Below, in pieces: positions 22,056 to 44,820 of a stretch of 64,000 nucleotides of DNA. Both the position numbers and the translations under genes were made by a program. The DNA comes from a beta proteobacterium MWH-UniP1. Lineage in GTDB: Bacteria > Pseudomonadota > Gammaproteobacteria > Burkholderiales > Burkholderiaceae_A. The notes below the pieces were generated by a model. That model did not search any database. It had not been told where the DNA came from and saw only the letters and a list, made by a program, of their open reading frames with translations. Positions within the stretch are counted from its first letter, which is position 1; every line of letters starts with the position of its first letter. The stretch lies in assembly GCA_036362785.1 (NCBI GenBank), contig CP143625.1, positions 621,401 to 685,400 on the forward strand, given 5' to 3'.

Positions 22056-22067
22056 AGTGGGTCTTTC

Positions 22068-28316: not shown

Positions 28317-28320
28317 AAAA

Positions 28321-29301
28321 TTAGGCCTGGTCTTGGCTGCTTTGTGGCAGCACGAGTTCTTGGTTAAAGCAGCGTTGGAAATATTCCGCGACCAGGGCGC
28401 GCTCTACGGGCTCGCACTTATTCAGAAATGAGAGCTGAAAGGCCAGGCCAAGATCGTGAAAAATCTCGCTGTTCTCTGCCCAGGTAATGATGGTTCGCGG
28501 TGTCATCAAAAGCGACAAATCCCCTGCGGCAAATCCCTTTCGGGTTAGACCGGCCAGGGCCACCATGGCACGAATCTGGGCCATCCCGGCGGTGTTGTTC
28601 ATCGACGGCACGCGGGCCAACACAATGGCCACTTCTTCTTCGGGTGAGAGATAGTCAAGCGATGCCACCAGGTTCCAGCGATCAAGCTGGGCATGATTGA
28701 GAAGCTGTGTGCCCTGATACGAGCCGCTTAAATTACCAAGCCCCAGCGTATTCATGGTGGCAAACAATCGAAACGATGGGTGGGGCCGGATCACACGTTT
28801 TTGATCAATCAGGGTGAAGCTGCCCTCGCGCTCTAAAATCCGTTGAATCACAAACATCACATCGGGCCGGCCAGCATCGTATTCATCAAAGATCATGGCC
28901 ATGGGCCGCTGAAGTGCCCAGGGCAAGATGCCTTCTTGAAACTCGGTCACCTGATTGCCATCGCGCAGCACGATCACATCCTTGCCCACCAGATCCAGGC
29001 GGCTGATGTGGCCATCCAGATTCACGCGAACACAGGGCCAATTCAATCGCGCAGCAACCTGCTCAATGTGGGTGGATTTTCCCGTGCCATGCATGCCTTG
29101 CAGCACCACTCGCCGATTAAAGGCAAAGCCCGCAAGAATGGTGAGTGTGACTTGTGGATTAAAGCGATAAGCCAAGTCGATTTCCGGCACATGGTCATCT
29201 TGCTCGGCAAAGGCCGGCACCATCATGTCGCTATCAATGCCAAAGACCTCTCTCACCGAGAGTCGTTGGGTGGGCTGGAGTTGCTCAAGATCAGTCGTCA
29301 T
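28321..29301 (-). CDS. cobS: CobS-like AAA+ ATPase
   Basis: ATG 29301 gives 326 residues, close to CobS of cobaltochelatase. Near-identical landmarks are VREVFGIDSDMMVPAF, Walker A GMHGTGKST (69-77), the loop VNLDGHISRLDLVGKD, Walker B MIFDEYDAGRPDVMFVIQRILER and FATMNTLGLGNLSGSYQGTQ. It is a MoxR-type AAA+ motor that works with a VWA protein; cobT follows by four bases. Its start overlaps the IclR stop by 11 bases. With no cobN nearby and six sulfonate or redox genes in the same transcript, it may serve as a chaperone for another enzyme. Confidence 0.9.
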   Translation of the reverse strand: MTTDLEQLQPTQRLSVREVFGIDSDMMVPAFAEQDDHVPEIDLAYRFNPQVTLTILAGFAFNRRVVLQGMHGTGKSTHIEQVAARLNWPCVRVNLDGHISRLDLVGKDVIVLRDGNQVTEFQEGILPWALQRPMAMIFDEYDAGRPDVMFVIQRILEREGSFTLIDQKRVIRPHPSFRLFATMNTLGLGNLSGSYQGTQLLNHAQLDRWNLVASLDYLSPEEEVAIVLARVPSMNNTAGMAQIRAMVALAGLTRKGFAAGDLSLLMTPRTIITWAENSEIFHDLGLAFQLSFLNKCEPVERALVAEYFQRCFNQELVLPQSSQDQA

Positions 29302-30106
29302 GGGTTTGCTCGGCAGTGAAGTCGTCGTTAATGCGCGCAATGGCCTGGGCCGCACGCTGCAAGGCGGGAAGACAAGACAGTGCGCGTTCCATCGAAAACC
29401 GCATGACCGGGGCCTGCAGGGCCAGGCCCATGTTGGAACTGCCAGTGGGCGAGGGCACCAACACGCCCAAGCAGAGCAGGCCCGGCAGAAACTCTTCGTT
29501 ATCGAAAGCGTAGCCCTGCTGCTTCACCTGCAGGATTTCTTTTTCGAGTGACTCTAAGGTGGTGTAGGTGTTGGCGGTGAATTTTTCCAGCGTGCCTGCA
29601 TCCAGCAGTCGACGGCGCTGGGCTGGCGCCATCTGGCTTAAAAACAATTTGCCCGTGGCCGAGCAGTGGGCCGGTACACGGGAGCCAGGGTGAAGATAAA
29701 AACGCAGCGGTGCTGCGGTCTCGACTCGGTCGAGATAGAGCACTTCGCCGCCAGAAAATGCGGTGAGGTTGCAGCTCTCGCCAATCTCATCAACGAGTTG
29801 ACGCAATATCGCGTGGCGTGCCCCATGGGTGGTGGTGTTCAACAGCAGCCGCTCGGCAAGCCGAATGAGTCGCTGCCCCGTGCTGTAGTGCCGGCCATTG
29901 CCGTCTCGCTGCAAGATGCCAGCGCTTTCTAACTGCGACAGCATGCGGTGCAGGGTGGGCTTAGGCAGGCCAGTCTCTTCCACCATGGCCTGAAGGGTGA
30001 AAGGCGCGTCTTTGCCGGCGATAACTTCCAGCAGGGCAAAGAGCCGCAGGTTGGGCGTGTCGCCGTCAATCCGGCTGCCGCCTAGGGGGTCGGTTAAGGT
30101 GTTCAT
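29291..30106 (-). CDS. IclR-family transcriptional regulator (first)
   Basis: ATG 30106 (MNTLTDPLGGSR) gives 271 residues; a longer frame runs into the xsc leader. It has the IclR winged helix (about 18-80; LPKPTLHRMLSQLESAGIL) and effector domain (LTAFSGGEVLYLDRVE, HCSATGKLFL). It is divergent from xsc and heads the cobS-cobT-pta-soeABC-gst operon, so it is well placed to control the shared lower pathway, with sulfoacetaldehyde or a related compound as the possible effector (inference). Confidence 0.9.
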   Translation of the reverse strand: MNTLTDPLGGSRIDGDTPNLRLFALLEVIAGKDAPFTLQAMVEETGLPKPTLHRMLSQLESAGILQRDGNGRHYSTGQRLIRLAERLLLNTTTHGARHAILRQLVDEIGESCNLTAFSGGEVLYLDRVETAAPLRFYLHPGSRVPAHCSATGKLFLSQMAPAQRRRLLDAGTLEKFTANTYTTLESLEKEILQVKQQGYAFDNEEFLPGLLCLGVLVPSPTGSSNMGLALQAPVMRFSMERALSCLPALQRAAQAIARINDDFTAEQTHDD

Positions 30107-30249
30107 CGTGCCGAAATCATAAGTTATTCCATTTTTTTTAACAATAAGTTCCGAAAAAAGAGATTTTGTTTGACATCGAAGATTTTCGCCCCTAGAGTTC
30201 GGCTCACTGGCCCCGGGGGAGCGGGGCCACCCCAATACAAAAAGAGGAG
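30107..30249 (+). promoter_or_regulatory. Divergent promoter region between IclR and xsc
   Basis: TTGACA (30171-30176) and TAGAGT (30193-30198) are 16 bases apart and form a good sigma70-type promoter for xsc. Two direct copies of GT(G/T)CCGAAA lie at 30108-30116 and 30149-30157, 41 bases apart start to start, and could be regulator sites. The Shine-Dalgarno GAGGAG at 30244-30249 favours ATG 30256 as the xsc start. No CTGGAC-type TauR motif is seen here. Confidence 0.5.
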
Positions 30250-30255
30250 ATGGAA

Positions 30256-32070
30256 ATGAATGCAATGAACGAGATGCGCAAGGTGGCCCAGGGCGTCCAA
30301 AAAATGACGCCGTCGGAGGCTTTTGTGGAGACCTGTGTGGCCAACGGCGTGACCGAAATGTTCGGTATCATGGGCTCGGCTTTTATGGATGCCATGGATA
30401 TTTTTGCCCCGGCTGGTATTCGGTTGATTCCAGTCGTGCATGAGCAGGGCGCAGCCCACATGGCCGACGGCTATGCCCGCGTGTCGGGCCGCCACGGTGT
30501 GGTGATTGGTCAAAACGGCCCTGGCATTAGTAACTGCGTGACAGCAATCGCTGCCGCGTATTGGGCTCACAGCCCTGTGGTCATCATCACGCCCGAGACC
30601 GGCACCATGGGCATTGGCCTTGGCGGTTTCCAAGAGGCCAATCAGTTGCCCATGTTCCAGGAATTCACCAAGTATCAGGGCCATGTGGTCAACCCCAAGC
30701 GCATGGCTGAAATTACGGCACGCTGCTTTGATCGTGCCATTTCTGAGATGGGCCCAACCCAGCTGAACATTCCCCGTGACTACTTCTACGGCGAGATCAC
30801 TTGCGAGATTCCCAAGCCCATGCGTGTTGAGCGTGGCTCGGGTGGTGAGAACAGCCTGAAGGCTGCTGCTGAATTGTTGGCGACCGCTAAATTCCCGGTA
30901 ATTCTTGCTGGCGGTGGCGTGGTCATGGGTGATGCGGTGGAAGAATGCAAGGCACTGGCTGAGCGTTTGGGGTCACCAGTTGCGGTGGGTTATTTGCGTA
31001 ACGACGCATTCCCGGCAAGCCATCCGCTGTGGGCCGGTCCCCTGGGTTATCAGGGCTCTAAGGCTGCAATGAAATTAATTTCACAGGCAGATGTGGTGAT
31101 CGCTCTTGGGTCGCGCATGGGGCCATTTGGCACGCTGCCACAGCACGGCATGGATTACTGGCCCAAAGAAGCCAAGATCATTCAGGTGGAAGCCGATCAC
31201 ACCAACCTGGGTTTGGTGAAAAAGATTGCCGTTGGTATTCACGGTGATGCCAAGGCCGTGGCCAAGGCATTACTTGCCCATATCAGCAAGGCCACTTTGG
31301 CATGTGACGCCACCAAGGCCGAGCGTGCTGCGAAGATCAAGGCTGAAAAAGATGCATGGGAAAAAGAACTCACCGAGTGGACTCATGAGCGCGATGCCTA
31401 TAGCTTGGACATGATTGAAGAGGCTAAAAAAGAGCGTACCTTTAACGGCGGCCACTATCTGCATCCACGCCAGGTGCTACGCGAGTTGGAAAAGGCCATG
31501 CCCCCACGTGTCATGGTGTCCACCGATATCGGCAACATCAATTCGGTGGCCAACAGTTACCTGCGGTTTGAAGAGCCACGCAGCTTCTTTGCCCCCATGA
31601 GCTTTGGTAACTGCGGCTATGCCCTGCCCACGATGATTGGCGCGAAGGTCGCTGCACCGGATCGCCCTGCAGTGGCTTACGCGGGTGATGGTGCCTGGGC
31701 CATGAGCATGGTGGAGATCATGACGGCCGTGCGTCACGACATTCCGGTCACGGCCGTGGTCTTCCACAATCGCCAGTGGGGTGCTGAGAAGAAAAACCAG
31801 GTCGACTTCTACAACCGTCGATTCGTGGCGGGTGAGCTCGAGAGCCCCAGCTTTGCGGACATTGCGAAGTCGATGGGTGCAGAAGGCATTGTGGTCGACG
31901 AGCTTGAAAATGTTGGCCCAGCGCTCAAAAAAGCGATCGATATGCAGATGAATCAGCGCAAGACCTGCGTGATTGAAATCATGTGTACCCGTGAGCTGGG
32001 GGATCCCTTCCGCCGTGATGCGCTGAGCAAACCCGTGCGCTTTTTGGAGAAGTACAAAGATTACGTTTGA
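30256..32070 (+). CDS. xsc: Sulfoacetaldehyde acetyltransferase
   Basis: Xsc is a thiamine diphosphate enzyme that cleaves sulfoacetaldehyde with phosphate to acetyl phosphate and sulfite, the step that breaks the C-S bond. The 604-residue protein has MTPSEAFVETCVANGVTEMFGIMGSAFMDA at the front, PVVHEQGAAHMADGYARVSGR, NIPRDYFYGEI, the diphosphate-binding AYAGDGAWAMSMVE motif and CTRELGDPFRRDALSKPVRFL at the end, which distinguish it from acetolactate synthase. ATG 30256 is chosen because the Shine-Dalgarno is six bases upstream; ATG 30250 overlaps it. Its stop overlaps the convergent IclR gene by ten bases. Sulfoacetaldehyde is the meeting point of both upper pathways. Confidence 0.95.
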   Translation: MNAMNEMRKVAQGVQKMTPSEAFVETCVANGVTEMFGIMGSAFMDAMDIFAPAGIRLIPVVHEQGAAHMADGYARVSGRHGVVIGQNGPGISNCVTAIAAAYWAHSPVVIITPETGTMGIGLGGFQEANQLPMFQEFTKYQGHVVNPKRMAEITARCFDRAISEMGPTQLNIPRDYFYGEITCEIPKPMRVERGSGGENSLKAAAELLATAKFPVILAGGGVVMGDAVEECKALAERLGSPVAVGYLRNDAFPASHPLWAGPLGYQGSKAAMKLISQADVVIALGSRMGPFGTLPQHGMDYWPKEAKIIQVEADHTNLGLVKKIAVGIHGDAKAVAKALLAHISKATLACDATKAERAAKIKAEKDAWEKELTEWTHERDAYSLDMIEEAKKERTFNGGHYLHPRQVLRELEKAMPPRVMVSTDIGNINSVANSYLRFEEPRSFFAPMSFGNCGYALPTMIGAKVAAPDRPAVAYAGDGAWAMSMVEIMTAVRHDIPVTAVVFHNRQWGAEKKNQVDFYNRRFVAGELESPSFADIAKSMGAEGIVVDELENVGPALKKAIDMQMNQRKTCVIEIMCTRELGDPFRRDALSKPVRFLEKYKDYV

Positions 32071-32846
32071 TCTGCAAATTCGGAGTCGCTGCAGAAGGAT
32101 TTTCCAATCGCTTCTGCAGCACTTCGCATCTTGGGCACAAAGCCTAACAAATCCTCTAGACTTTTTCTTCCAACCGGGGCCTGCACAGAGATCGCTGCGC
32201 AGGCTTTTTCTTTTGTCAGCATCACCGGCACGGCAACGGCAATCAGTCCCTGCAGGTGTTCTTCCTGATTGATCCCAATTTTTTCACGACGGGTTTTGAC
32301 AAGGTCTTGTTCTAAGGCATGACGCTCGGTGTGTGTTTTGCCGGTGATGGGCCGCATGGGCATGAGATTGAGCAGCCGCTCTCGTTGTGGCTTGGGCAAT
32401 AGACTGAGCAAGAGTTTGCCGCTGGCCGTGGCATGTAGTGGCACATGGCTTCCCGGTGTCAGGATGGCCCGCAGTGGCCAGGCAGCCTCGACCCGATCGA
32501 GATAAACAATGTCAGAGCCTGCCAAGGCAGTGATGTTGCAGGTTTCCCCCAGATCATCAACCAAGGACTGCAGGATGGCGTGCCGTTCACGCTGGCTTGG
32601 CGAGTGCATCAGGGCTGAGACCGCAAAGTCTTCAATTCGGCGCCCGAGCTGATAGCGCCGATCCCCTGGGTACTTCACCACCAGTCCTGCCAAGAGCAGC
32701 TGCTCCAGGATTCGGTGCACGGTCTGTTTGGGCAGGGCCGTGTCCCGCATGAGCTCGGACATGGTTTTGCCATCGGATTGTTGGGCGATGCACTCCAGCA
32801 TGCGAAAGGCGCGCAGGGCCGAGGAGTTTGATTGATTGCTTTCCAT
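32061..32846 (-). CDS. IclR-family transcriptional regulator (second)
   Basis: ATG 32846 (MESNQSNSSALRAF) gives 261 residues with an IclR helix-turn-helix (LPKQTVHRILEQLLLAGL) and effector domain (ITALAGSDIVYLDRVEAAWPLRAILTPGSHVP). It is divergent from the tripartite transporter and sau genes, 96 bases away, and is the natural candidate regulator of that operon. It resembles the first IclR protein and may be a paralogue. I cannot assign the name SauR with confidence. Confidence 0.9.
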   Translation of the reverse strand: MESNQSNSSALRAFRMLECIAQQSDGKTMSELMRDTALPKQTVHRILEQLLLAGLVVKYPGDRRYQLGRRIEDFAVSALMHSPSQRERHAILQSLVDDLGETCNITALAGSDIVYLDRVEAAWPLRAILTPGSHVPLHATASGKLLLSLLPKPQRERLLNLMPMRPITGKTHTERHALEQDLVKTRREKIGINQEEHLQGLIAVAVPVMLTKEKACAAISVQAPVGRKSLEDLLGFVPKMRSAAEAIGKSFCSDSEFADQT

Positions 32847-32942
32847 GGTCACCCAGGATACCTCATAAATACCAGATATCGGGACTTTTTTGCATCGCAA
32901 TCTGCAATAACGTACGTTTAATCACACCACAGGAGACGCCTC

Positions 32943-33905
32943 ATGAACACTTTTCAAACACGCCGCCGCTTGTTGCAGTCCACCTTGGCTCTGTCTGCGG
33001 GTGCTGCTGGCTTGGTCCATGCACCGTCGCTCTTTGCCCAGGCCAAGTACCCCAGCCGCCCTGTGGAATTCATCGTGCCCTGGGGTGCTGGGGGCGGGGC
33101 CGATCAGCTGGCCCGCAAGGTTGGAAAAATTCTTGAGGCAGATCTCAAGGCCTCTTTCCCCATCGTGAACGTGGCCGGTGCTACCGGAAACACGGGCATG
33201 ACCAAGATGCTGACTGCGGCAGCCGATGGTTATTCAATTGGTATTTTGATTGGTGACACGCTGGCCACCTTGGCCGGCGGTGGGGCCCGCTGGAAACTCA
33301 ACGAGATCGTGCCTCTGGGCATCATGATCCGTCAGCCGACCGGCATCTTTGTGAAGGCGGACAGCAAGTACAAGACTTTCCAAGATCTGCTCAATGACAC
33401 GAAGAGTAACGAAGTGAAGGTGGCCATTCTTGGTTTCGGTAGCGCCGACGAAATCATGGTCAAGCAGATGGTGGCCAAGGGCCACAAGATGCGCATGGTG
33501 CCATTTGCCAAACCCGGCGAGCGTTACTCGTCAATCCTGGGTGGCCATGCGGACGTGCTCTTGGAGCAGGCCGGTGATGTCGGCTCCTTCCTGAGTTCAA
33601 AACAGATGCGTCCATTGGCATTTTTTGCCGATGCTCCCGCCCCTGGGTTTCCTAATGTTCCGCTGGTGAAAGATTCTGGGTTCCCCATCAGCATTAGTCA
33701 GTTCCGTGCGATTGTGATGCGCGCTGGCACTGATGCGGGTCAGGTGTCGGCACTGGCGGCAGCGATTGAGCGTGCCGCAAAGTCGGCCGAATTTAAGCAG
33801 TATCTCTCTGACGAGCAGGCGTATGCCGACAGCTTTATTGCGCAGAAAGACTCGATGGCGTTTTTGCAGCGGGAACTCAAGGCGATTGAATCGAATAAAT
33901 CCTGA
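32943..33905 (+). CDS. TctC/Bug-family periplasmic binding protein
   Basis: A 320-residue extracytoplasmic solute receptor of a tripartite tricarboxylate transporter. The N-terminus has a signal peptide with a twin-arginine-like MNTFQTRRRLLQ and an Ala-rich core cut near LFAQA. The mature part begins YPSRPVEFIVPWGAGGGADQLAR, diagnostic of Bug proteins. Its partners follow directly, then sauS and sauT, so the ligand is probably sulfoacetate (inference). ATG 32943 has a good Shine-Dalgarno (AGGAGA). Confidence 0.93.
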   Translation: MNTFQTRRRLLQSTLALSAGAAGLVHAPSLFAQAKYPSRPVEFIVPWGAGGGADQLARKVGKILEADLKASFPIVNVAGATGNTGMTKMLTAAADGYSIGILIGDTLATLAGGGARWKLNEIVPLGIMIRQPTGIFVKADSKYKTFQDLLNDTKSNEVKVAILGFGSADEIMVKQMVAKGHKMRMVPFAKPGERYSSILGGHADVLLEQAGDVGSFLSSKQMRPLAFFADAPAPGFPNVPLVKDSGFPISISQFRAIVMRAGTDAGQVSALAAAIERAAKSAEFKQYLSDEQAYADSFIAQKDSMAFLQRELKAIESNKS

Positions 33906-33926
33906 ACTTGTGATTGGAATCGTCTT

Positions 33927-34523
33927 ATGACACGCATTCGCCGTGCGGCGCCGTACATGTTGTTACTGGTGGTGTCTTTTGTGTTGTTGTGGTCTTTAAG
34001 CCAGACGCCCACCGATAGCGTGCCCGAGGGCACACTTGGGCCAACCGCCTGGCCCAAGGCCATCGTGGCCCTAATGATTTTGTTGTGCGTCTACGAGACA
34101 TTGAAACGTCTGGCGCGGGCAAAAGATTTGTTTACTGGATTTATTGATCGGCAGGAGCAGGCTGCTGCGCGCGGCGAAGAGGTGGGCTCCATCAAGACGC
34201 TGCTCGCGCCCACGGTGGAAGAATCGCAAGACGACGACCCGCCAATTCAGCCGCTCAAACTGATGGGTGGTATCGCGCTGATCGCAGGCTATGCAGTGGG
34301 CATCACCACCCTTGGTTTTTTTCTCAGTAGCGCCGTGTTTCTGTCGGTCTTCGCAGCGATCGGTGGCTATCGGCACGTGATTTGGAACCCGGTGATCTGC
34401 CTGATTGGCAGCTTTGGTTTTTTCTTTGTGTTTATGCGGGTGGCTTATATCTCGCTTCCTTTGGGGGAGGGCCTTTTTAAAGAGTTTTCCCTGCTGTTAC
34501 TCAAACTGATCGGAGTGAGCTAA
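33927..34523 (+). CDS. TctB-family small membrane subunit
   Basis: A 198-residue protein with four hydrophobic segments (for example AAPYMLLLVVSFVLLWSLS and LMGGIALIAGYAVGITTLGFFLSSAVFLS), the small subunit of the tripartite transporter. A charged cytoplasmic loop lies between helices 2 and 3. It is four bases upstream of tctA. TctB sequences diverge widely, so the family is inferred from position and topology. Confidence 0.88.
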   Translation: MTRIRRAAPYMLLLVVSFVLLWSLSQTPTDSVPEGTLGPTAWPKAIVALMILLCVYETLKRLARAKDLFTGFIDRQEQAAARGEEVGSIKTLLAPTVEESQDDDPPIQPLKLMGGIALIAGYAVGITTLGFFLSSAVFLSVFAAIGGYRHVIWNPVICLIGSFGFFFVFMRVAYISLPLGEGLFKEFSLLLLKLIGVS

Positions 34524-34527
34524 AGCT

Positions 34528-36036
34528 ATGGACGTCTTACTCAATCTATTTCAAGGGGTCGTCACCGTTTTCACGCCAGTGAATTTTCTGGTGATGGTGA
34601 TTGGCCTGGTGCTGGGCATGCTGGTGGCAGTGCTGCCTGGGCTAACACTCGTGATGGGCGTGGTGCTCGCCCTGCCGTTTACCTATCAAATGGGGGTTGG
34701 CCCCGCACTCATTTTGCTTACCGCCATGTATGTGTCGGGCACCTACGGCGGTGCCATTACCGCGATTCTTTTTCGCATTCCTGGGGAACCCATGGATGTG
34801 CCCCTGCTGTGGGACGGTTATGAAATGACCAAGCAGGGTCTGGCTGCCAAGGCCCTGGGCTATTCGCTGATCGCAGCGCTGGTGGGTGGGTTGGCTTCTG
34901 CGGTGTTGATGGTGGCCATGGCCAAGCCGGTTGCTGAAGTTGCCCTGAAGTTTTCCTCGCCAGAATTTTTTGCAGTTATTGTTTTTGGCTTATCCAGTGT
35001 GGTGTCGTTGGGCGGCAAGTCATTGGTCAATGCCTTGATCAGTCTGTGTCTTGGCCTGTTGTTCGCAACGGTGGGTGTCGATTCTATTTATGGACAAGAG
35101 CGCCTGACTTTTTCTCAGCCATTTCTCATGGATGGCATTGAGTTTCTCTTGGTCATGGTGGGGGCCTATGGGATTGGTGAAGTACTCACGCGGCTCTCGG
35201 TGGGCTATCCCAGCGAGGGCGGTGATGATCAGGCCGCCAAGCCAAGTCGGTTTGTGACCGCGTTTCCCAAGCTTCGCGAATTGCTGCCACTGAAGGGGAG
35301 TTTTGTGCGTGGCACCGGCACTGGTGTCGTGGTGGGATTGGTTCCCGGTGCAGGCGCCACCGTGTCGTCGTTTGTGGCCTACGGTATTGAGCGGCAATAC
35401 GGTAAGAACGGCAATAAGCTGGGCACCGGTGCACCCGAGGGCATTATTGCGGCCAAGTCAGCGGCCACGGCGTCAGTCGGTGGGGCCTTGGTACCCCTGC
35501 TGACCATGGGTATTCCGGGAAGTGGTGCCACCGCCATTATTTTGGCGGCCTTTTTGTTGCACGGCATTCAGCCAGGCCCCCAGGTTTTTGTGAGCAGCTC
35601 TGCCTTGATCTACACGGTTTTTGCATCCGTTTTTATTGGTGTGATTGGCATGTGTATCTTGGGCTACTTTGCAATCAAGCCGCTCACCAAGGTCTTGGAT
35701 GCGCCCGAAGCCGTGGTCTCGGCCTTTGTGATTATGTTTTGTTTTGTCGGCGCCTTTGCTGCCCGCAACAACACATCCGATCTTTATGTGATTGCGGCGT
35801 TTGGCCTGTTGGGATTTTTGTTTGAGCGGTTTAAGTTTCCGATTGCACCGCTTGTGCTGGGAACGATTCTTGGCCCGCTTGCGGAAGACAACTTCATGAC
35901 GACCATGGTCAGTTTTAATAACGACTGGACGGTCTTTCTTACCCGGCCGATTAGCCTTGGTATTCTGATCGTGGCTGCCATAGGCGTGTTTTATCCCATG
36001 ATTCGCTCGACCTACGCCAAGAAATCGCAAACCTAA
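34528..36036 (+). CDS. TctA-family large membrane subunit
   Basis: A 502-residue channel subunit with about 11-12 helices. It has the TctA signature regions LPGLTLVMGVVLALPFTYQMG, YVSGTYGGAITAILFRIPGEP, GLVPGAGATVSSFVAYGIE and MGIPGSGATAIILAAFLLHG. With the TctC and TctB genes it makes a secondary, sodium- or proton-driven importer. TTT systems for C3 sulfonates (sulfolactate) are known; import of C2 sulfoacetate is suggested by sauS-sauT directly downstream. Confidence 0.95.
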   Translation: MDVLLNLFQGVVTVFTPVNFLVMVIGLVLGMLVAVLPGLTLVMGVVLALPFTYQMGVGPALILLTAMYVSGTYGGAITAILFRIPGEPMDVPLLWDGYEMTKQGLAAKALGYSLIAALVGGLASAVLMVAMAKPVAEVALKFSSPEFFAVIVFGLSSVVSLGGKSLVNALISLCLGLLFATVGVDSIYGQERLTFSQPFLMDGIEFLLVMVGAYGIGEVLTRLSVGYPSEGGDDQAAKPSRFVTAFPKLRELLPLKGSFVRGTGTGVVVGLVPGAGATVSSFVAYGIERQYGKNGNKLGTGAPEGIIAAKSAATASVGGALVPLLTMGIPGSGATAIILAAFLLHGIQPGPQVFVSSSALIYTVFASVFIGVIGMCILGYFAIKPLTKVLDAPEAVVSAFVIMFCFVGAFAARNNTSDLYVIAAFGLLGFLFERFKFPIAPLVLGTILGPLAEDNFMTTMVSFNNDWTVFLTRPISLGILIVAAIGVFYPMIRSTYAKKSQT

Positions 36037-36082
36037 AAAGAAAAACAAGTAACACCAAGATCCCTCACGAAAGGTAATACAG

Positions 36083-37522
36083 ATGGCAGAAGTGGTTGCA
36101 ACACCCGCAGGCCCAGTTGGCACAATGGTCCAGGGCTTGATTGATCGGGCCCGTCAGGCCCAACAGAAAATTGACGGGTATACCCAGGCGCAGGTGGACC
36201 TGATGGTGTCATCGGTCGCCTGGGCTATTTTGGAGCCGGGCCGCAATCGGCTACTGGCTGACCTGGCGGTAAAGGATTCTGGCATTGGCAATGCAGACGA
36301 CAAGTTCACCAAAAATTTTCGCAAGACCTTAGGCCTGGTGCGCGACTTAAAGGGCGCCATCTCGGTGGGCGTGTTGCGTGAAGACCCCGCCAATGGCATT
36401 ACTGAAATTGCGCGGCCCGCAGGGGTGGTAGCGGCCATTACACCGTCGACCAATCCCGGGGCAACACCGATTAATAAAATTCTAAATTCCTTGAAATGCC
36501 GAAATGCCGTGATCTTGGCACCATCGCCCAAGGGCGCATCCACCTGTGCCACGTTGTTGGGTTTTGTGCATGAGCAGTTACGAAAGGTGGGTGCGCCAGA
36601 AGATCTGGTGCAGATGCTGCCCGCCCCGATCTCAAAAGAAGCCACTCATGAACTGATGCGCCGCGCGGATCTGATTGTGGCCACCGGCTCTCAGGCCAAT
36701 ATTCGCTCGGCCTATTCCAGCGGCACGCCGGCCTTTGGCGTGGGTGCAGGTAATGCGGCAGCGATTATCGATGAGTATGCCGATGTCGCAGCAACTGCAG
36801 TCAAGATTGCCCGCTCGAAGACGTTTGATCACGCCACGAGCTGTTCTAGTGAAAATGGTGCTGTGATTGTCGATGCCATCTACGACAAGGCGATTGCCGC
36901 ATTACAAACGGCTGGTGGTGTGATGCTGACACCTGAAGATCAGGCCAGGCTGCAGGCGTTTATGTTCCCCGGCGGCAAACTCTCATCCGCCGCAACCGCC
37001 CAGTCGGCGGTGACGATTGCACAGCGTGCTGGCTTAACCACTCCTGGTGCGAATAAGGCCAAGTTCTTGATGGTGACCGCGACCTCAGCGGGCAAAGAAG
37101 AACCTTTTTCTGGTGAGAAGCTCAGCCCCGTGTTGACCGTCTGGCGTGTGGCCGACTTTCAAGCGGCGGCTGCCATGGTGGCCAAGATCTATGCCTATCA
37201 GGGTGCCGGCCATTCGGTCAGTCTTCATACCGCCGCCAGTGGCGATGTCTTGGAAACCCGCGCCCGCGACCTTGCCCACCACTTGCCGGTCTGCCGTGTG
37301 ATTGTGAATCAGGCCCATGCGATTGCCACAGGCGGCAGTTTTGACAATGGCCTGCCATTCTCGCTTTCCATGGGCTGCGGCACCTGGGGCAAGAATAGTT
37401 TTTCAGAGAATATGAATTATCGGCATTACATGAACATCACGCGGATTGCCCGGCCCATCCCGGAAAAGGTGCCAACCGTCGACGAGTTGCTGGCTGACTA
37501 TTTTGAAAAGTTTGGACGTTAA
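36083..37522 (+). CDS. sauS: Sulfoacetaldehyde dehydrogenase (CoA-acylating), SauS-like
   Basis: A 479-residue acylating aldehyde dehydrogenase. The catalytic cysteine is C254 in FDHATSCSSENG, and the NAD(P) region shows ITPSTNPGATPINKILNSLKCRNAV and GVGAGNAAAIID. It is the right size and type for SauS, which reduces sulfoacetyl-CoA to sulfoacetaldehyde in Cupriavidus. Here the downstream ligase SauT and the shared lower pathway support that role. A general acetaldehyde/CoA dehydrogenase is the alternative. Confidence 0.78.
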   Translation: MAEVVATPAGPVGTMVQGLIDRARQAQQKIDGYTQAQVDLMVSSVAWAILEPGRNRLLADLAVKDSGIGNADDKFTKNFRKTLGLVRDLKGAISVGVLREDPANGITEIARPAGVVAAITPSTNPGATPINKILNSLKCRNAVILAPSPKGASTCATLLGFVHEQLRKVGAPEDLVQMLPAPISKEATHELMRRADLIVATGSQANIRSAYSSGTPAFGVGAGNAAAIIDEYADVAATAVKIARSKTFDHATSCSSENGAVIVDAIYDKAIAALQTAGGVMLTPEDQARLQAFMFPGGKLSSAATAQSAVTIAQRAGLTTPGANKAKFLMVTATSAGKEEPFSGEKLSPVLTVWRVADFQAAAAMVAKIYAYQGAGHSVSLHTAASGDVLETRARDLAHHLPVCRVIVNQAHAIATGGSFDNGLPFSLSMGCGTWGKNSFSENMNYRHYMNITRIARPIPEKVPTVDELLADYFEKFGR

Positions 37523-37526
37523 ATCA

Positions 37527-39035
37527 ATGAAGACGCTTCAAGACGTATGGGTGCACTGGGCAGTGAGCCAGCCCGATGCACCCATATTGATCTCCCCTGA
37601 AACCGATCGCCGTGTCACTTACGCCGAGTTGCATCAGCAGACTCGGGAGCTGGCCGGTACGCTTAAGCGCATGGGCATTCAACCGGGCACCCATATTGGC
37701 CTGTATTTGCAAAATGGTCTGCAGACGACCCGATTGTTTTTGTCCATCATGGCGGCAGGTTATGTGGTCACGCCGTTTAATCTGCTGGCCCATGTGGATC
37801 AGCTGGCCTGGGTCTTGGACCACAGTGATTGTGAGCTGGTGTTCTATGGGGAAGGCCAGCGCGAGACCCTGTTGGCAGCACTCAAGAAAACCCAACGCAG
37901 TTTTGCCACCCGTCAGATTGATTCCGATGCGCAAACGCTCGCGCTTGACGATGGCGCGGCAGTGGAACTCAGCCCCTTGGCGGCAGATCAGCCCGCCCTG
38001 CTGATGTACACATCAGGCACTACGGGCACGCCCAAGGGCGTGCGGCTCACGCATCGCAATCTTTTGCATGCGGCCCACACAGTCAGCCAGTGGCACCAGC
38101 TCACACATCAAGACCGTGTGCTGAGTTCATTGCCCATTTATCACATCAACGGGCAGTCGATTGCCACCATCACGCCGTTTTATTCGGGCGGCAGCATTGT
38201 GTTGCCCCAGAAGTTCTCGGTGTCGCAGTGGTGGCCTGCCGTGCTGAAGTACGAGTGCACCTGGATCAACATGGTGCCCACCATCATTGCTTACTTACTC
38301 AATTCGGCAAAAGATGCCAATGCACCTGCGGCCCAGGCCCTAAAGCGGGTGCGGTTTGGCCGATCTGCATCGGCACCGCTTCCGCCGGAGCATCATCGGG
38401 CCTTTGAGGAGCGCTTTGGCATTCCCGTGATTGAAGCCATGGGCATGACGGAATCGGCGTCTGTTGTATTTTGTAATCCGCATGATGATCGGCGTCGCTA
38501 TGGCAGTCCGGGCCTGCCCTGTGGTGTGCAGGCCAAGGTGGTCAGCCCCGATGGCGTGGCGCTTGGGGACAACGAAACAGGTGAGCTCTGTTTGTATGGC
38601 GATAACGTGATGTCTGGCTACTACAAGTCTGATGCAGAAACAGCAAAGGCATTTGATGCCCAGGGCTGGTTAAAGACAGGAGACTTGGGCTATCGCGATG
38701 CAGATGGTTTTTATTTTGTAACGGGCCGGCTGAAAGAGCTGATCATCAAAGGCGGGGAAAACATTGCGCCCCGCGAGATCGATGAAGTCTTGTTAAAGCA
38801 CCCATCGGTACTCGATGCCGCCTGCGTGGGCATTCCCGACCCAAACTATGGACAAGAGATTCTGGCCTGCATTGTCTTGAAAGAAGGAAGTGCTTGTACC
38901 GAAGAGGAAATTCGTGGGTTTTCCATTGAACGACTTGGCAAATACAAGACACCAAAGGTGTTTCATTTCGTTGCCGATCTTCCACGCGGACCATCTGGAA
39001 AGGTGCAAAGGCTAAAACTGATCGATTGGGTATAG
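37527..39035 (+). CDS. sauT: Sulfoacetate-CoA ligase, SauT-like (AMP-forming)
   Basis: A 502-residue acyl-CoA synthetase from ATG 37527, five bases after sauS. Motifs: MYTSGTTGTPKGVRLTHRN (AMP binding), PIYHINGQSIATITPF, EAMGMTESASVVFCN, LKTGDLGYRDADGFYFVTGRLKELIIKGGENIAPREID and the lysine motif GPSGKVQRLKL. The type is clear. Substrate (sulfoacetate) is inferred from its position after sauS and the TTT importer, matching sauST of Cupriavidus necator. Confidence 0.78.
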   Translation: MKTLQDVWVHWAVSQPDAPILISPETDRRVTYAELHQQTRELAGTLKRMGIQPGTHIGLYLQNGLQTTRLFLSIMAAGYVVTPFNLLAHVDQLAWVLDHSDCELVFYGEGQRETLLAALKKTQRSFATRQIDSDAQTLALDDGAAVELSPLAADQPALLMYTSGTTGTPKGVRLTHRNLLHAAHTVSQWHQLTHQDRVLSSLPIYHINGQSIATITPFYSGGSIVLPQKFSVSQWWPAVLKYECTWINMVPTIIAYLLNSAKDANAPAAQALKRVRFGRSASAPLPPEHHRAFEERFGIPVIEAMGMTESASVVFCNPHDDRRRYGSPGLPCGVQAKVVSPDGVALGDNETGELCLYGDNVMSGYYKSDAETAKAFDAQGWLKTGDLGYRDADGFYFVTGRLKELIIKGGENIAPREIDEVLLKHPSVLDAACVGIPDPNYGQEILACIVLKEGSACTEEEIRGFSIERLGKYKTPKVFHFVADLPRGPSGKVQRLKLIDWV

Positions 39036-39043
39036 TGGCGCCC

Positions 39044-40315
39044 ATGAAGTATCTGCCCTTTGCGCGATGGTCCCAGGATTGGAAAACGCCTGGCACCATT
39101 CGCACGGATCTGCTTGCTGGTCTTACCGGCGCCATTGTGGTGCTGCCCCAGGGGCTGGCCTTTGCTACTTTGGCGGGCATGCCACCGCACTACGGCCTGT
39201 ATGCCGCGATTCTGCCGTGCATCATTGCCGCGCTGTTTGGTTCGAGCCGACTGATGGTAACGGGGCCTGCCAACGCAATTTCGCTCACCACCATGGCCCT
39301 GATTGGGTCGATGGCAATTCCCGAGAGCCCAGAGTACGTCAGTCTTGTGTTGACCTTGAGTTTCTTGGTGGGCATCTTGCAGATTGCGCTTGGGCTTGGG
39401 GGTGTTGGCAAGTGGGTTGAAAAAGTGCCGCACTCGGTCATTGTGGGCTTCACCACAGGGGCCGCCATTCTGATTATCAATAGCCAGGTGGGCAGCCTGG
39501 TTGGCGTAGAGATTCCCAGGGGCGTGAGTGTGGCCGAGACACTGCAGGCTGCGTTTACTGGCGTTGTACAGGGTGTGGCCCAGCCCCTTGCACCGCTGTT
39601 GGTCGTCTTAACTCTGATTGTGATGCGTCTGTGGCGGCCTTTGAATCGAAAAATTCCGGCAATGTTGATTGCGGTTATTTTTGGAAGCCTTGCGGCGATG
39701 GCGCTTGAGCACTGGCTGGGTAACGGCTACACATTTCGCCGAGTGAGTGCTATTCCGGGGGCGATCCCACCGCTCTCCATGCCCGATTTTCGACTGAGCA
39801 CTGTTCAGCAGCTCTTTGGTGCGGCGATGGTCATGGTGTTGTTGGCGTCGACCGAGGCCATGGCGATTGCCCGTGCCATGGCGCTCAAAACCAAAGATCC
39901 GTTCGATGCCAATCAGGAATTTATTGGTCAGGGCCTGGCCAATCTTGGTGGCGCCTTTACATCGGCCTATCCGGCAAGCGGTTCCTTTAATCGATCGGGT
40001 GTGAACTTTGCCGCAGGTGCGCGCACGCCGCTATCGGCAGCCAGTGCCGGCGTGTTTCTGGTGCTGATTTTGCTGTTCGTGTCACCCCTGGCCATGTATC
40101 TGCCCTATGTGGTGATCTCGGCTTTGCTGTTGGCGGTTGCCTGGGGCCTGATCGACATGAGACAGATTCGGCATGAAATTCATGCAGGCCCACGCGAGTG
40201 GCTGCCGATGGCCGTCACCGGCATTGGCACGGTCGCTGCGTCACTGGAGTGGGCCGTGTTACTTGGCATTTGCACCGCCATGATCACGCATCGCTTTTTA
40301 AAGAAAAAGCACTGA
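39044..40315 (+). CDS. SulP-family anion permease lacking the STAS domain
   Basis: A 423-residue transporter from ATG 39044, eight bases after the sauT stop (a TTG at 39026 would overlap sauT). It has the SulP motifs DLLAGLTGAIVVLPQGLAFATLAGMPPHYGLYAA, VTGPANAIS and SAYPASGSFNRSGVNFAAGARTPLS. It ends soon after the last helix (ITHRFLKKKH), so the cytoplasmic STAS domain of typical SulP proteins is absent. In this operon it may export sulfate or sulfite released from sulfonates, or import an anion; direction is unknown. Confidence 0.88.
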   Translation: MKYLPFARWSQDWKTPGTIRTDLLAGLTGAIVVLPQGLAFATLAGMPPHYGLYAAILPCIIAALFGSSRLMVTGPANAISLTTMALIGSMAIPESPEYVSLVLTLSFLVGILQIALGLGGVGKWVEKVPHSVIVGFTTGAAILIINSQVGSLVGVEIPRGVSVAETLQAAFTGVVQGVAQPLAPLLVVLTLIVMRLWRPLNRKIPAMLIAVIFGSLAAMALEHWLGNGYTFRRVSAIPGAIPPLSMPDFRLSTVQQLFGAAMVMVLLASTEAMAIARAMALKTKDPFDANQEFIGQGLANLGGAFTSAYPASGSFNRSGVNFAAGARTPLSAASAGVFLVLILLFVSPLAMYLPYVVISALLLAVAWGLIDMRQIRHEIHAGPREWLPMAVTGIGTVAASLEWAVLLGICTAMITHRFLKKKH

Positions 40316-40447
40316 ATTACCCCGGGTGTTTTATTGGCCGGGGCGAGGCCGGCCGACACAGTATTTACCCCTAGACATTCCATCTAACGCCCCCAAATCG
40401 TTGTGAACACGGCATCCTGCGGTGGCGCCGTTTTTCTGCGGTGCAGC

Positions 40448-40480
40448 GTGGATCTAAACAAAACAGATCCCTGGACCTAT
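40448..40480 (+). promoter_or_regulatory. Candidate TauR operator upstream of tauA
   Basis: GTGGATCTAA (40448-40457) and CTGGACCTAT (40471-40480) are direct repeats 23 bases apart start to start. They resemble the CTGGAC(T/C)TAA direct repeats I recall as TauR binding sites in alphaproteobacteria. The same two motifs with the same 23-base spacing recur before tauX. A plausible promoter follows: TTGTCT at 40490-40495 and TACTAA at 40514-40519. The rest of the 225-base gap after the SulP gene shows only a weak GC-rich hairpin at 40320-40343. Confidence 0.6.
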
Positions 40481-40540
40481 CCGAGCAGATTGTCTGATCG
40501 GTAGTCTTTGCCTTACTAAAATAATTACGAGGAGATAGAC

Positions 40541-41560
40541 ATGCACATCAACATTATTCGCCGCGCAGTCGTGGGTGCAATTGCCGCAAGCGGACTCATG
40601 GGTGCTCAAGCGTATGCACAGCCCAAAGAAGTCACGATTGCATACCAAGACATGATGATGCCCTGGCGTTTTGCTCACGCCACGGGTGAGATTGAAAAAG
40701 CCACCGGTTACAAAATCAATTACCGCAAGTTTGGCGGTGGTGGCGATGTGATTCGCGCGATGGCCTCTGGCCAGGTGCAAATTGGCGAAGCCGGTTCCGC
40801 GCCGATTGCCTCGGCACTCTCGCAAGGTCTGCCGGTGGAATTAATCTGGATCATGGCGGATATTGGAGACGCCGAAGCCTTGGTGGCCCGTAAGGCCAGC
40901 GGCGTGAAGAGTGTTGCCGATCTGAAAGGCAAAAAAATTGGGGTGCCGTTTACATCGACCACTCACTTTCATACCCTGGTTGCTCTGGAGGCTGCAAAGC
41001 TGAAAGCCACTGATGTGCGCATTCTGAATATGCGCCCGCCAGAGGTTGCAGCAGCCTGGGAGCGTGGCGATATTGATGCCACCTTTATCTGGGACCCGGT
41101 ATTGGCCAAGGTGAAGTCCAGCGGTGTGGTGCTCACCACTTCTGGAAAAATTTCCCAAGACACAGGCAAGGCAACTTTTGAGGGCATCTTGGCCCAAAAG
41201 GAATGGGCCAAGTCGAATCAAGACTTTGTGGTGAAGTTTCTAAAAGTCATCGCAAACGCCGACGACAACTATCGTAAAAACGCTGCCAAGTGGGTGGTGG
41301 GCTCGCCCATGGTGAAAGCCGTGGCCGATGTCACGGGTGCCAAGGCTGAAGATGTACCACCCGGTATGCAGTTGTATCGCTTCCCGACCATCGCTGAGCA
41401 GACATCGAAGACCTGGATGGGCGGCGGTAAAGACAGCGGGGCAGCGAAGTCACTGGCGGCTACTGCTGCATTTCTAAAGTCGCAGGGCACGATATCGGCC
41501 ACGTTAAACGACTACTCGGTTGGCGTGAACCCACGCTTTGCTGAGTCAGCGGGTAAATAA
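40541..41560 (+). CDS. tauA: Taurine ABC transporter periplasmic binding protein
   Basis: A 339-residue protein with a signal peptide (RRAVVGAIAASGLMGAQAYA, cut near residue 26) and an ABC solute-binding fold: VTIAYQDMMMPWRFA, YRKFGGGGDVIRAMASGQVQIGEAGSAPIA and IGVPFTSTTHFHTLVALEA match TauA-type proteins. tauB and tauC follow, with the TauR-like regulator and TauXY. It begins with a Shine-Dalgarno GAGGAGA and is preceded by candidate TauR repeats. Confidence 0.9.
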   Translation: MHINIIRRAVVGAIAASGLMGAQAYAQPKEVTIAYQDMMMPWRFAHATGEIEKATGYKINYRKFGGGGDVIRAMASGQVQIGEAGSAPIASALSQGLPVELIWIMADIGDAEALVARKASGVKSVADLKGKKIGVPFTSTTHFHTLVALEAAKLKATDVRILNMRPPEVAAAWERGDIDATFIWDPVLAKVKSSGVVLTTSGKISQDTGKATFEGILAQKEWAKSNQDFVVKFLKVIANADDNYRKNAAKWVVGSPMVKAVADVTGAKAEDVPPGMQLYRFPTIAEQTSKTWMGGGKDSGAAKSLAATAAFLKSQGTISATLNDYSVGVNPRFAESAGK

Positions 41561-41585
41561 TAAAAAAATAACGGGGGAGACACCA

Positions 41586-42365
41586 TTGAGTACGTTGCAT
41601 ATCCAAGATGTATCGGTTCAGTTTGAGACTCGACGTGGCGAATCCACGCTGGCGCTCTCGACGGTCAATCTCGAGATGAACTCGGGAGATTTTGTGGTGG
41701 CCATCGGGGCGTCGGGCTGCGGGAAGACCACACTACTGTCTTGCATTGCCGGGTTCTTGGAGCCGTCACAAGGCGATATCGTGCTCAATGGTGCCGTTGT
41801 CCACGGCCCCGGTGCCGACCGGGGCGTGGTGTTTCAAAAGCATGCGCTCATGCCCTGGCTTAACGTGATCGAAAACGTTGAGTTTGGTTTGAAAATGCGG
41901 GGTGTTCCGAAAAAAGAGCGCCGCGAAGTCGCGATGGACAAGATCCAAGCGGTTGGACTGACCAAATATGTGAATTCGCCGGTCTATCAGCTCTCGGGCG
42001 GCATGCAGCAGCGGGTGGGCATTGCCCGTGCATTGGCCTCTAACCCAGAAGTGTTGCTTATGGATGAACCACTGGGGGCGCTGGATGCCTTAACCCGTGA
42101 GTCAATTCAAGAAACCATTCTTCGGCTCTGGGACAAAGAAAAGAAGATTGTCTTTTTTATTACCCACTCGGTAGAAGAGGCGCTTTTCTTGGCAACCGAC
42201 TTGATTGTGATGTCGCCATCACCTGGCCGGATTGTGAAGCGCTACAAGCTGTCGTTTTGTCATGACTTTATCCGCACGGGCGATGCACGTGCCGTCAAGT
42301 CGCAGCCCGAATTTATTCGCATGCGTGAAGAAGTGGTCTCGCTGATTCACGACACCAAACATTGA
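41586..42365 (+). CDS. tauB: Taurine ABC transporter ATP-binding protein
   Basis: A 259-residue ABC ATPase: Walker [15 protein letters not shown], signature [15 protein letters not shown], Walker [14 protein letters not shown] and the switch histidine in [11 protein letters not shown] choose TTG 41586, because the Shine-Dalgarno GGGGGAGA (41573-41580) is five bases upstream and the product then starts [14 protein letters not shown]; a longer frame from 41538 would overlap tauA. It powers taurine uptake with TauA and TauC. Confidence 0.9.
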
Positions 42366-42381
42366 GCCACGGAGAGAAACG

Positions 42382-43203
42382 ATGAGTGCATCCAGTGCGC
42401 CGATGAGAAAAGTAAAGGGCTATCGTGTACCGGGCGAGGGCCCGACCATGACGATTTCATTGATCACCACCGCAGCGATTTTTATTCTCTGGTGGGCCAT
42501 CACGGCGGCAGGGTTGTTACCGCCCCTGGTGCTACCAACCCCAGCAGCGGTCTGGGAAGCCTTTATGGCGGGCAACCGTGGGGAATTACAGGGCGGCATT
42601 ACGCTGATTGAGCACTTTGGTTGGAGCGTCTACCGTGTGTTCGGCGCCTTTTTTCTGGCCTGCCTGTTTGCCATTCCAGTGGGTATCTTGATGGGTGTGT
42701 CACGGATCATGCGCGGTATTTTTGACCCGCCGATTGAGTTTTATCGCCCCCTGCCACCACTGGCTTATCTGCCCCTGGTCATCATCTGGTTTGGGATTGA
42801 TGAAACTTCAAAAATCATTCTGATTTATTTGGCCTGCTTTGCGCCCCTGGCGGTTGCGGCCCGCGCCGGTGTGCGTTCAGTCACGGTAGAGCAAATCAAT
42901 GCAGCATTTTCTATGGGGGCATCGCGCTCACAGGTGGTCTGGCATGTGATTTTGCCGGCGGCCCTGCCCGAGATTCTCACCGGCATGCGCATTGCGATTG
43001 GTTTTGGCTGGACCACCCTGGTGGCAGCCGAGATGGTGGCAGCCACGGCTGGCCTTGGTCAGATGGTGCTCAATGCATCGAACTTCTTGCGCACCGATGT
43101 GGTCATCATGGGCATTATCGTGATCGGTATTGTTGCCCTGCTGTTTGATGCGCTGATGCGCCGGATCGAAATCTGGGCCGTGCCTTGGCGCGGCCGCATG
43201 TAA
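42382..43203 (+). CDS. tauC: Taurine ABC transporter permease
   Basis: A 273-residue membrane subunit with six helices and the EAA loop (AAFSMGASRSQVVWHVILPAALPEILTGMRIAIGFGW) that docks TauB. LPTPAAVWEAF near the front is typical of the SsuC/TauC group. It is 16 bases after tauB and ten before tauR. Nitrate and alkanesulfonate permeases are similar; the neighbouring tauR-tauXY genes point to taurine. Confidence 0.9.
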   Translation: MSASSAPMRKVKGYRVPGEGPTMTISLITTAAIFILWWAITAAGLLPPLVLPTPAAVWEAFMAGNRGELQGGITLIEHFGWSVYRVFGAFFLACLFAIPVGILMGVSRIMRGIFDPPIEFYRPLPPLAYLPLVIIWFGIDETSKIILIYLACFAPLAVAARAGVRSVTVEQINAAFSMGASRSQVVWHVILPAALPEILTGMRIAIGFGWTTLVAAEMVAATAGLGQMVLNASNFLRTDVVIMGIIVIGIVALLFDALMRRIEIWAVPWRGRM

Positions 43204-43212
43204 ATTCTTGCC

Positions 43213-44727
43213 ATGTCCAATACCGCACCCGCCTTAAACGCTGTGATGTGGCGCGAGATTTTCGAGCGCTACCGCACGGACGGCCGAAATCTGCAAAACC
43301 AAATTCGAACCATGATTGTCGAGGCCATTCTGGATGGCCGTCTGCCGGCCAATAGTGAAGTGCCATCCAGCCGTGAACTCTCTGAAGCATTAGGCGTGGC
43401 ACGCAATACCGTGGTCTTGGCCTATCAACAGCTGGTGGCCAAGGGCTATCTGGTCACGCGAGACCGCAGCGGCCATCGGGTGAACCCAGAGATGGCCAAG
43501 CCATCCGGGCTGCAGGCCCCCAAGCGTGCCGAGCCCGCCCGGGCGCAGGTGGTGCCGATTAATCATCGTGCGCCGGATTGGACCAGCCGGCTTCAGCTGT
43601 CGGTGGGCAGCCAGCGCAATATTGTGAAGCGCTCTGATTGGCAGAAATTGCCGTATCCGTTTCTGTATGGCCAATTTGATGCCAGTCTATTTCCAACGGC
43701 GGAGTGGCGTGAGTGCTGCATGAAGGCCCTGTCGGTCGGGGATATTCGTGAGTGGGCCCAGGATCTGATTCTGCATGATGATGAAGCCCTGATTAATGAA
43801 ATCTGCACCAAGGTCTTGCCGCGCAGGGGTGTCTGGGCCACACCCGATCAGGTGGTGGTCACAGTAGGCGCGCAAAACGCGCTCTACATGATTGCTGATC
43901 TCTTGTTTTCGGAAACCACACGGGTCGGCATGGAGAATCCGTGCTACCCGGATGCGCGCAATATTTTTTCTTTAAAGTCGGGGAAGATTGTTCCCATTGA
44001 TGTGGATGACCAGGGGCTGCCAGTCGATGATCGGCTTGATGGCTGTGACTATGTCTATGTCACTCCCAGCCATCAATGCCCCACCGCCACCAAGATGTCC
44101 GTGGAGCGTCGTGAAGCGTTGTTGCGCGCCGCCGAGCAGCATGACTTTGTGATTGTCGAAGATGACTACGAAGCAGAGTCGGTCTTTGGCGAAAACCCCA
44201 GTCCTGCATTAAAGAGCAGTGACCGTTCCGGCCGCGTGCTTTATGTGGGCAGCCTATCCAAGACATTTGCGCCGGGCTTGCGCCTGGGCTATCTGGTGGG
44301 GCCCACCCCCATCATCAGTGAGCTACGCGGTCTGCGCCGGCTGATGGTGCGGCATCCGTCCGCCTTTATCCAACGTGCTTTTGCGCTTTTTATTTCTTTG
44401 GGGCATTTAGATGCCATGGTCCGCAAGCAGACCGTGATCTATCGCCAGCGTGCCATGGCGTTGCAAGAAGCCCTGGCCCGACACATGCCCGAGTTCGAGG
44501 TCTATCCCAGCCACGGCGGCTCATCACTCTGGGTCCGGGGACCACGGGGGTTAGATGCGCGGTGGCTTGCCGAGCAGGCAGAAAAAGTTGGCGTGTTGAT
44601 TGAGTGTGGCGATGTGTTTTTTGAGGAGCCTGCACCGCGTGAGTTTTTTCGACTGGGTTTTTCGGCCATCAATGTCGAGCGGATTGAGTCCGGCATTGAA
44701 TTACTGGCCAAGGTCTCGCGCGGCTGA
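43213..44727 (+). CDS. tauR: TauR-type MocR regulator
   Basis: A 504-residue MocR protein: an N-terminal GntR winged helix (ILDGRLPANSEVPSSRELSEALGVARNTVVLAYQQL) fused to an aminotransferase-like domain with the PLP lysine in VGSLSKTFAPGLRLGYL. In Rhodobacter, TauR activates taurine genes when taurine is present and binds direct repeats. Here matching direct repeats lie before tauA and tauX. It follows tauC by nine bases and precedes tauXY, so autoregulation is likely. Confidence 0.88.
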   Translation: MSNTAPALNAVMWREIFERYRTDGRNLQNQIRTMIVEAILDGRLPANSEVPSSRELSEALGVARNTVVLAYQQLVAKGYLVTRDRSGHRVNPEMAKPSGLQAPKRAEPARAQVVPINHRAPDWTSRLQLSVGSQRNIVKRSDWQKLPYPFLYGQFDASLFPTAEWRECCMKALSVGDIREWAQDLILHDDEALINEICTKVLPRRGVWATPDQVVVTVGAQNALYMIADLLFSETTRVGMENPCYPDARNIFSLKSGKIVPIDVDDQGLPVDDRLDGCDYVYVTPSHQCPTATKMSVERREALLRAAEQHDFVIVEDDYEAESVFGENPSPALKSSDRSGRVLYVGSLSKTFAPGLRLGYLVGPTPIISELRGLRRLMVRHPSAFIQRAFALFISLGHLDAMVRKQTVIYRQRAMALQEALARHMPEFEVYPSHGGSSLWVRGPRGLDARWLAEQAEKVGVLIECGDVFFEEPAPREFFRLGFSAINVERIESGIELLAKVSRG

Positions 44728-44734
44728 TTCCTGT

Positions 44735-44767: not shown

Positions 44768-44820
44768 CGGCCCGTCGGTCTTCTACATAACAATGTCATC
44801 TGATCATTAAGGAGAGGCGA

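Follow-up and report, generated by a model that had tools for sequence, protein, structure and literature searches.

A tripartite tricarboxylate transporter encoded with sauS and sauT is the probable sulfoacetate importer of the beta proteobacterium MWH-UniP1

How does sulfoacetate enter a bacterium that carries sauS and sauT with a different transporter in the place of SauU? SauS and SauT, with the importer SauU, were reportedly described from Cupriavidus necator H16 by Weinitschke and colleagues in 2010. SauU is a protein of the major facilitator superfamily (MFS), whereas in the genome of MWH-UniP1 that place is occupied by tctC, tctB and tctA, which encode the three parts of a tripartite tricarboxylate transporter (TTT). 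The genome consists of one contig of 2.05 Mb, and the stretch analyzed here, referred to as the window, comprises 64,000 nucleotides of it (CP143625.1, positions 621,401 to 685,400 of the forward strand). All positions below are those of the window. On the basis of gene order and comparison across genomes, we propose with a probability of about 80% that this operon imports sulfoacetate by its TTT and degrades it. The genes concerned are the following.

32061-32900, minus strand: IclR-family regulator, divergent from tctC (PF01614, 112.8 bits)
32943-33905, plus strand: TctC-family solute receptor of 320 amino acids, the proposed sulfoacetate binder (PF03401, 70.9 bits; cut-off 27)
33927-34523, plus strand: TctB, small membrane subunit (PF07331, 49.1 bits; cut-off 29.1)
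34528-36036, plus strand: TctA, large membrane subunit (PF01970, 438.3 bits; cut-off 28.9)
36083-37522, plus strand: SauS, acylating sulfoacetaldehyde dehydrogenase (curated equivalog NF047625, 725.8 bits; cut-off 600)
37527-39035, plus strand: SauT, putative AMP-forming sulfoacetate-coenzyme A (CoA) ligase (PF00501, 290.2 bits; PF13193, 67.9 bits)

The five genes from tctC to sauT run head to tail on one strand, separated by gaps of 21, 4, 46 and 4 bases. The transporter was assigned to the TTT family since homologues of TctA, TctB and TctC are encoded side by side on the same strand, each above its Pfam cut-off. The first-pass annotation had placed TctC/TctB/TctA-like genes directly upstream of sauS-sauT with a divergent IclR gene, and this layout was confirmed by the coordinates and by the Pfam and NCBIfam matches. 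SauT was named by position, as an AMP-binding ligase directly after SauS; of its 106 NCBIfam matches, the best 25 included no SauT-specific model. Its start is the ATG at 37527 within the open reading frame (ORF) 37446-39035. Among named records, the SauS of the window is nearest to that of an uncultured beta-proteobacterium (69% identity), followed by those of two Polynucleobacter strains (68%), in a list that may lack records of this genome or of a very close one. No MFS protein was found among the ten ORFs scanned (29291-41560), and an unlinked SauU is possible. With an Advenella MFS protein whose gene adjoins sauST as the query, no match was obtained at an E-value of 1e-20 in any of the three genomes of this genus that were searched, in a run without a positive control.

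A TTT beside sauST has precedents. Clusters of sauST with a TTT instead of SauU were described in 2025 in Arctic sponge symbionts (PMC12625764). Like the window, these hybrids combine SauS and SauT with a TTT in the place of SauU, a likeness of gene content, whereas they come from marine, metagenome-assembled genomes. The same paper cites a putative TTT of Bilophila wadsworthia, SauXYZ, reportedly described by Liu et al. in 2023 and encoded with sauS and sauCD; by gene content a TTT stands beside sulfoacetate genes as in the window, but the Bilophila ligase is the ADP-forming SauCD and that of the window is SauT. The route of C. necator H16 to sulfoacetaldehyde uses SauS and SauT, as in the window (also via PMC12625764). 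A review names a sulfolactate TTT, SlcHFG (PMC5812351), which by its description is likewise reported for a sulfonate, as proposed here, but for a C3 sulfonate and another pathway. A paper that deals with selenium uptake and a homologue of SauU in Methanococcus (PMC11097638) has no bearing on the locus, and no paper on sulfoacetate and Polynucleobacter was found in the open-licence literature. The pairing of a sulfoacetate TTT with sauST is already in print, and the window is a well-supported new example of it. TTT uptake of sulfoacetate in place of an MFS importer, as the first-pass annotation had interpreted the locus, is well supported by the gene order, the cross-genome comparison and the lack of an MFS protein among the ten ORFs; that interpretation is likely right, yet it had already been proposed elsewhere. 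The further role that the annotation gave to TctC, that of a high-affinity receptor for sulfoacetate, is putative.

A tie between this transporter and sulfoacetate genes was seen in TctA. The window TctA was searched across 399 Burkholderiales genomes, with at most three candidates scored per genome. Twelve genomes matched at an E-value of 1e-120, of which 11 scored above 600 bits (at least 60% identity) and the twelfth, G596, scored 406 bits. SauS was counted where the NF047625 cut-off was passed, and the host genome was included in every set. By this measure, 36 of the 399 genomes of the order were SauS-positive, as were 6 of 61 relatives, 16 of 369 genomes of the class and 6 of 398 of the phylum. 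All 11 genomes with a close TctA relative (above 600 bits) were SauS-positive. The hypergeometric probability of this co-occurrence is 7e-13, a value that is too small because shared ancestry is ignored; the 11 genomes carry 7 family labels. The close relative adjoins sauS in nine of the 11. In the closest TctA group, made up of the window and five rows at 76-87% identity under four family labels, all six adjoin sauS. The link between this TctA type and the sulfoacetate genes is strong and not exclusive.

The comparison was also made from the side of SauS. The sample consisted of the window and stretches around 59 other distinct SauS loci (n = 60). TTT genes were found near sauS in 27 loci, 11 with the TctA type of the window and 16 with other types. 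A lone TctC gene, on the same strand and at most 3.7 kb upstream of sauS, with no TctA nearby, was present in 15 loci. Fifteen named SauS loci were also compared: the TctA type of the window occurred in three, a different TTT in two and a lone TctC in four, and by the same rule the remaining six had neither. Among these six, L010 and L013 have an MFS gene adjoining sauST, L011 and L012 have an ORF that matches the MFS ORF of L010 in length and place, L009, on a short contig, has a TctC gene divergent from sauS, and L005 has, downstream and on the opposite strand, a DctM-type gene. Taurine/alkanesulfonate-type ATP-binding cassette (ABC) genes lie directly upstream of sauST in L125 (4586-8811) and represent a further candidate importer type. 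In L077, L079 and L129, and in L081 near a contig end, SauS scored above the curated cut-off and no SauT-like gene was seen nearby; another ligase may be in use there.

The sauS-linked transporters were then placed in trees. In the TctA tree built by the careful method, group I, the window type, contains 16 rows (100/99). The 14 rows of group II belong to other families and in part to another class. Group III is made up of three rows, of which two come from records with the titles SAR324 and Deltaproteobacteria. A control TctA tree with 42 TTT rows from elsewhere was built by the quick method. The control rows were the first 40 of 83 TctA places, and the second TctA of the genome was left out of this count and stands in the tree as L149. 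For the receptor comparison only, 20 further controls were taken from the lower end, with the sau locus of G439 and the window itself excluded, and 20 places were not taken. No relative of SauS or Xsc was seen in the control stretches, which cover about 4 kb on each side. In the control tree, group II was split from group I by one long-branched control row (L185), and groups I and III met the other controls at an unresolved fork. The TctC tree, built by the quick method, gave the same three groups, with groups I and III and the distant relative L136 together (support 99), and the lone sauS-linked TctCs fell in several further places. Three independent recruitments of TTTs are not claimed, since groups I and III were not clearly separated in the TctA tree and were joined in the TctC tree. 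By these trees, TTTs of at least two lineages stand beside sauS, as do TctCs of several lineages.

The predicted model of the window TctC (mean pLDDT, the predicted local distance difference test, of 87.9) has a TctC-type fold. It aligned with the structures of Bug27, 2dvz (which we take to be BugE), AdpC, TphC, BugD and MatC with Z scores of 31-35; for Bug27, BugD, AdpC, MatC and TphC the alignments span about 283-286 residues at 19-22% identity. The P-F-x-A-G-G-x-x-D loop is present as P-W-G-A-G-G-G-A-D, with W for F. The second loop is altered, with K190-P191 in TctC for G178-T179 of TphC, which lie beside the TphC ligand. At the positions equivalent to the distal pocket of TphC, whose residues are given in PMC8556258, TctC has L163, A168, D169, Q209 and Q253. 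The known ligands of Bug27, BugD, AdpC, MatC and TphC are carboxylates (PMC8556258, PMC5812351), and the pockets of TphC, MatC and AdpC, as PMC8556258 describes them, are without positive charges. In the window TctC, R255, R194 and K190 occupy positions that are uncharged in TphC.

R255 was found in all 29 receptors of sauS-linked TTTs (12 of group I, 14 of group II and three of group III) and also in the three group I relatives away from sauS. Among 51 receptors of other TTTs, which represent 50 distinct genes because one entered the count twice, it was present in 16, and three rows have a gap at this position; it was absent from all 19 lone sauS-linked TctCs and from all 12 other TctCs of the host genome. 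R194 was conserved in groups I (15/15) and III (3/3), absent from group II (0/14) and found once in the 51 controls; K190 showed a similar distribution (13/15, 3/3, 0/14 and 0/51, respectively). A charged pocket was rejected as a sulfonate signature and kept only as a lead, because R255 also occurs in non-sau TTT receptors and in none of the lone sauS-linked TctCs. As a mark of sulfonate binding, R255 is suggestive at most, and it may mark a place where TctC touches both its membrane partner and the ligand.

The genes around the operon are listed below.

21135-25621, minus strand: SoeABC-like trio, with a molybdopterin subunit (22721-25621, PF00384), a 4Fe-4S subunit (22068-22724, PF13247) and a DmsC-type anchor (21135-22055, PF04976)
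25640-26557, minus strand: phosphate acetyltransferase/butyryltransferase-type (Pta-type) enzyme (NF006045, 336.1 bits; cut-off 282)
29291-30265, minus strand: second IclR-family regulator, divergent from xsc (PF01614, 120.1 bits)
30250-32070, plus strand: Xsc, sulfoacetaldehyde acetyltransferase, upstream of the transporter genes (TIGR03457, 1036.6 bits)
39026-40315, plus strand: SulP-type anion transporter (PF00916, 286.7 bits; no STAS domain match)
40541-43203, plus strand: TauA, TauB and TauC of a taurine ABC importer (TauA: TIGR01729, 333.9 bits; cut-off 304.25)
43213-46598, plus strand: TauR-like MocR regulator, TauX-like SnoaL protein and TauY-like flavin adenine dinucleotide oxidoreductase (family matches)

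Xsc is the single match in the genome at an E-value of 1e-100. The top matches of TauB and TauC are taurine models, with scores under the model cut-offs. The names TauR, TauX and TauY follow the tauRXY gene order, and the TauX/TauY-like pair would act as a taurine dehydrogenase. The SoeABC label was given by architecture because no SoeABC-specific model was among the matches listed. The SulP protein is a possible sulfite/sulfate exporter. A SulP-type gene adjoins sauST in six of 75 loci (the window, L076, L078, L098, L006 and, on the opposite strand, L004). Between the Pta-type gene and the IclR gene on the xsc side lie CobS-/CobT-like cobaltochelatase genes (26550-29355), which score under the curated equivalog cut-offs.

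In the proposed pathway, the periplasmic TctC would capture sulfoacetate and pass it to TctAB, which would carry it inward, with an ion gradient probably supplying the energy as it does for other TTTs; the TTT would take the role of the Cupriavidus SauU. SauT would convert sulfoacetate into sulfoacetyl-CoA, which SauS would reduce to sulfoacetaldehyde, and Xsc would convert the latter into sulfite and acetyl phosphate. The Pta-type enzyme would give back acetyl-CoA from acetyl phosphate, the SoeABC-like enzyme may oxidize the sulfite, and the IclR protein may control the genes. The presence of xsc, sauST, tau, Pta-type and SoeABC-like genes in the window makes it plausible that sulfoacetate or taurine is converted to sulfite and acetyl-CoA, the steps of the route being read from protein families. 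Sulfoacetate can arise from taurine and feed other bacteria (PMC12625764).

The transporter slot of this operon differs within the genus. In the congener G001 (L078) the order is IclR, xsc, IclR, tctCBA, sauST, sulP and tau genes, as in the window, with one extra divergent gene between sulP and tauA. In the congener G003 (L076) a single TctC, from a different clade and scoring 77 bits against the TctC of the window, is all that lies between xsc and sauS. This locus retains xsc, sauST and sulP as well as tauABC and an added gene of the kind seen in G001, and it has neither the second IclR gene nor tctBA. Three TctA matches lie elsewhere in the G003 genome, and at least one TctA match was found in each of the 15 genomes with a lone TctC. 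In the host genome, 14 TctC matches, including a fragment whose open frame spans 71 residues, face two TctA matches, so that orphan receptors are in excess. Since TctC outnumbers TctA in the host and TctA is encoded elsewhere in all lone-TctC genomes, it is likely that lone receptors share membrane parts encoded elsewhere. We tentatively suggest, at somewhat less than even odds, that sulfoacetate degradation has repeatedly taken on receptors of the TctC fold, that within a genus the operon slot alternates between a complete TTT and a TctC receptor on its own, and that the lone ones would be sulfoacetate-specific orphans borrowing TctAB from elsewhere. In five of the 15 lone-TctC loci (L104, L107, L109, L112 and L113) a conserved divergent gene of about 471 amino acids, presumably a homospermidine synthase from its looks, sits between the lone TctC gene and sauS; a similar gene lies upstream of sauS in L108 and L117.

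Several observations weigh against sulfoacetate import by the TTT of the window. Eighteen of the 60 SauS loci had, by the rule used, neither a TTT nor an upstream lone TctC, so sauST does not require a TTT. Nine of these 18 share a genus label (g15), and most of the nine have several TctC genes farther away; L129 has an MFS gene, L125 has taurine-type ABC genes, and seven others include some near contig ends. Such absences are partly not firm because some stretches stop at contig ends. The solved structure closest to TctC by sequence, 4x9t, is free of ligand, and homology therefore does not name the substrate. The first loop of TctC, which holds the proximal carboxylate, is conserved and of the ordinary kind. 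Two of the 11 close TctA relatives, L134 and L135, are on other contigs than sauS. L134 (63% identical) adjoins two TauD-family dioxygenase genes and a TauE/SafE exporter gene, not sauS, and L135 is near a type III CoA-transferase and a thiamine pyrophosphate enzyme. These two loci suggest that the TctA subfamily may carry other sulfonates or carboxylates, and owing to them exclusive sulfoacetate specificity was given up as a firm claim.

The setting of L134 leads to the reading that the TTT is a broader sulfonate importer (for isethionate, sulfoacetate, sulfolactate or related compounds) with sulfoacetate as one substrate, which would widen the favored reading. The distant TctA relative L136 (43%) also has a TauE/SafE neighbor, and Xsc and taurine genes share the window with the TTT, but all six members of the closest TctA group adjoin sauS and taurine already has its own ABC importer here. 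We regard a broader range as possible, though not the better bet. That the substrate of the TTT is an ordinary di- or tricarboxylate, the place of the transporter by sauST being accidental or due to shared regulation only, would agree with the ordinary first loop and with the fact that TTT systems most commonly carry carboxylates (PMC5812351). It is very improbable in view of the 11 of 11 close TctA relatives in SauS-positive genomes, nine adjoining sauS, of another TctA lineage that also adjoins sauS, and of the change in the second TctC loop. The local TTT might also be redundant, with uptake handled by the other TctAB of this genome or by some unlinked importer. The 14 TctC against two TctA matches make sharing of membrane parts likely in this species, and a quarter of the SauS loci (15/60) have a lone TctC with no TctA nearby; against this, a complete tctCBA stands in line with sauST, and we consider redundancy unlikely, if by a hair less so than carriage of a carboxylate.

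Sulfoacetate importers are known mostly by gene neighborhood, and the import of sulfoacetate by the TTT of this operon, if correct, adds a clear example of the TTT kind in a 2.05 Mb Burkholderiales genome, while the comparison indicates that sauS commonly has a TTT nearby (27 of the 60 sampled loci). The live question is the import route of sulfoacetate in the lone-TctC variants. Orphan TctC/Bug proteins have long been recognized as a puzzle (PMC5812351), and no paper on lone TctC genes beside sauST was found in the open-licence literature. The 15 lone-TctC loci offer a way into the old question of what orphan TctC/Bug proteins do and which membrane partners they use. If the lone receptors are indeed sulfoacetate-specific and borrow TctAB, these loci would provide a concrete system for how orphan Bug proteins work.

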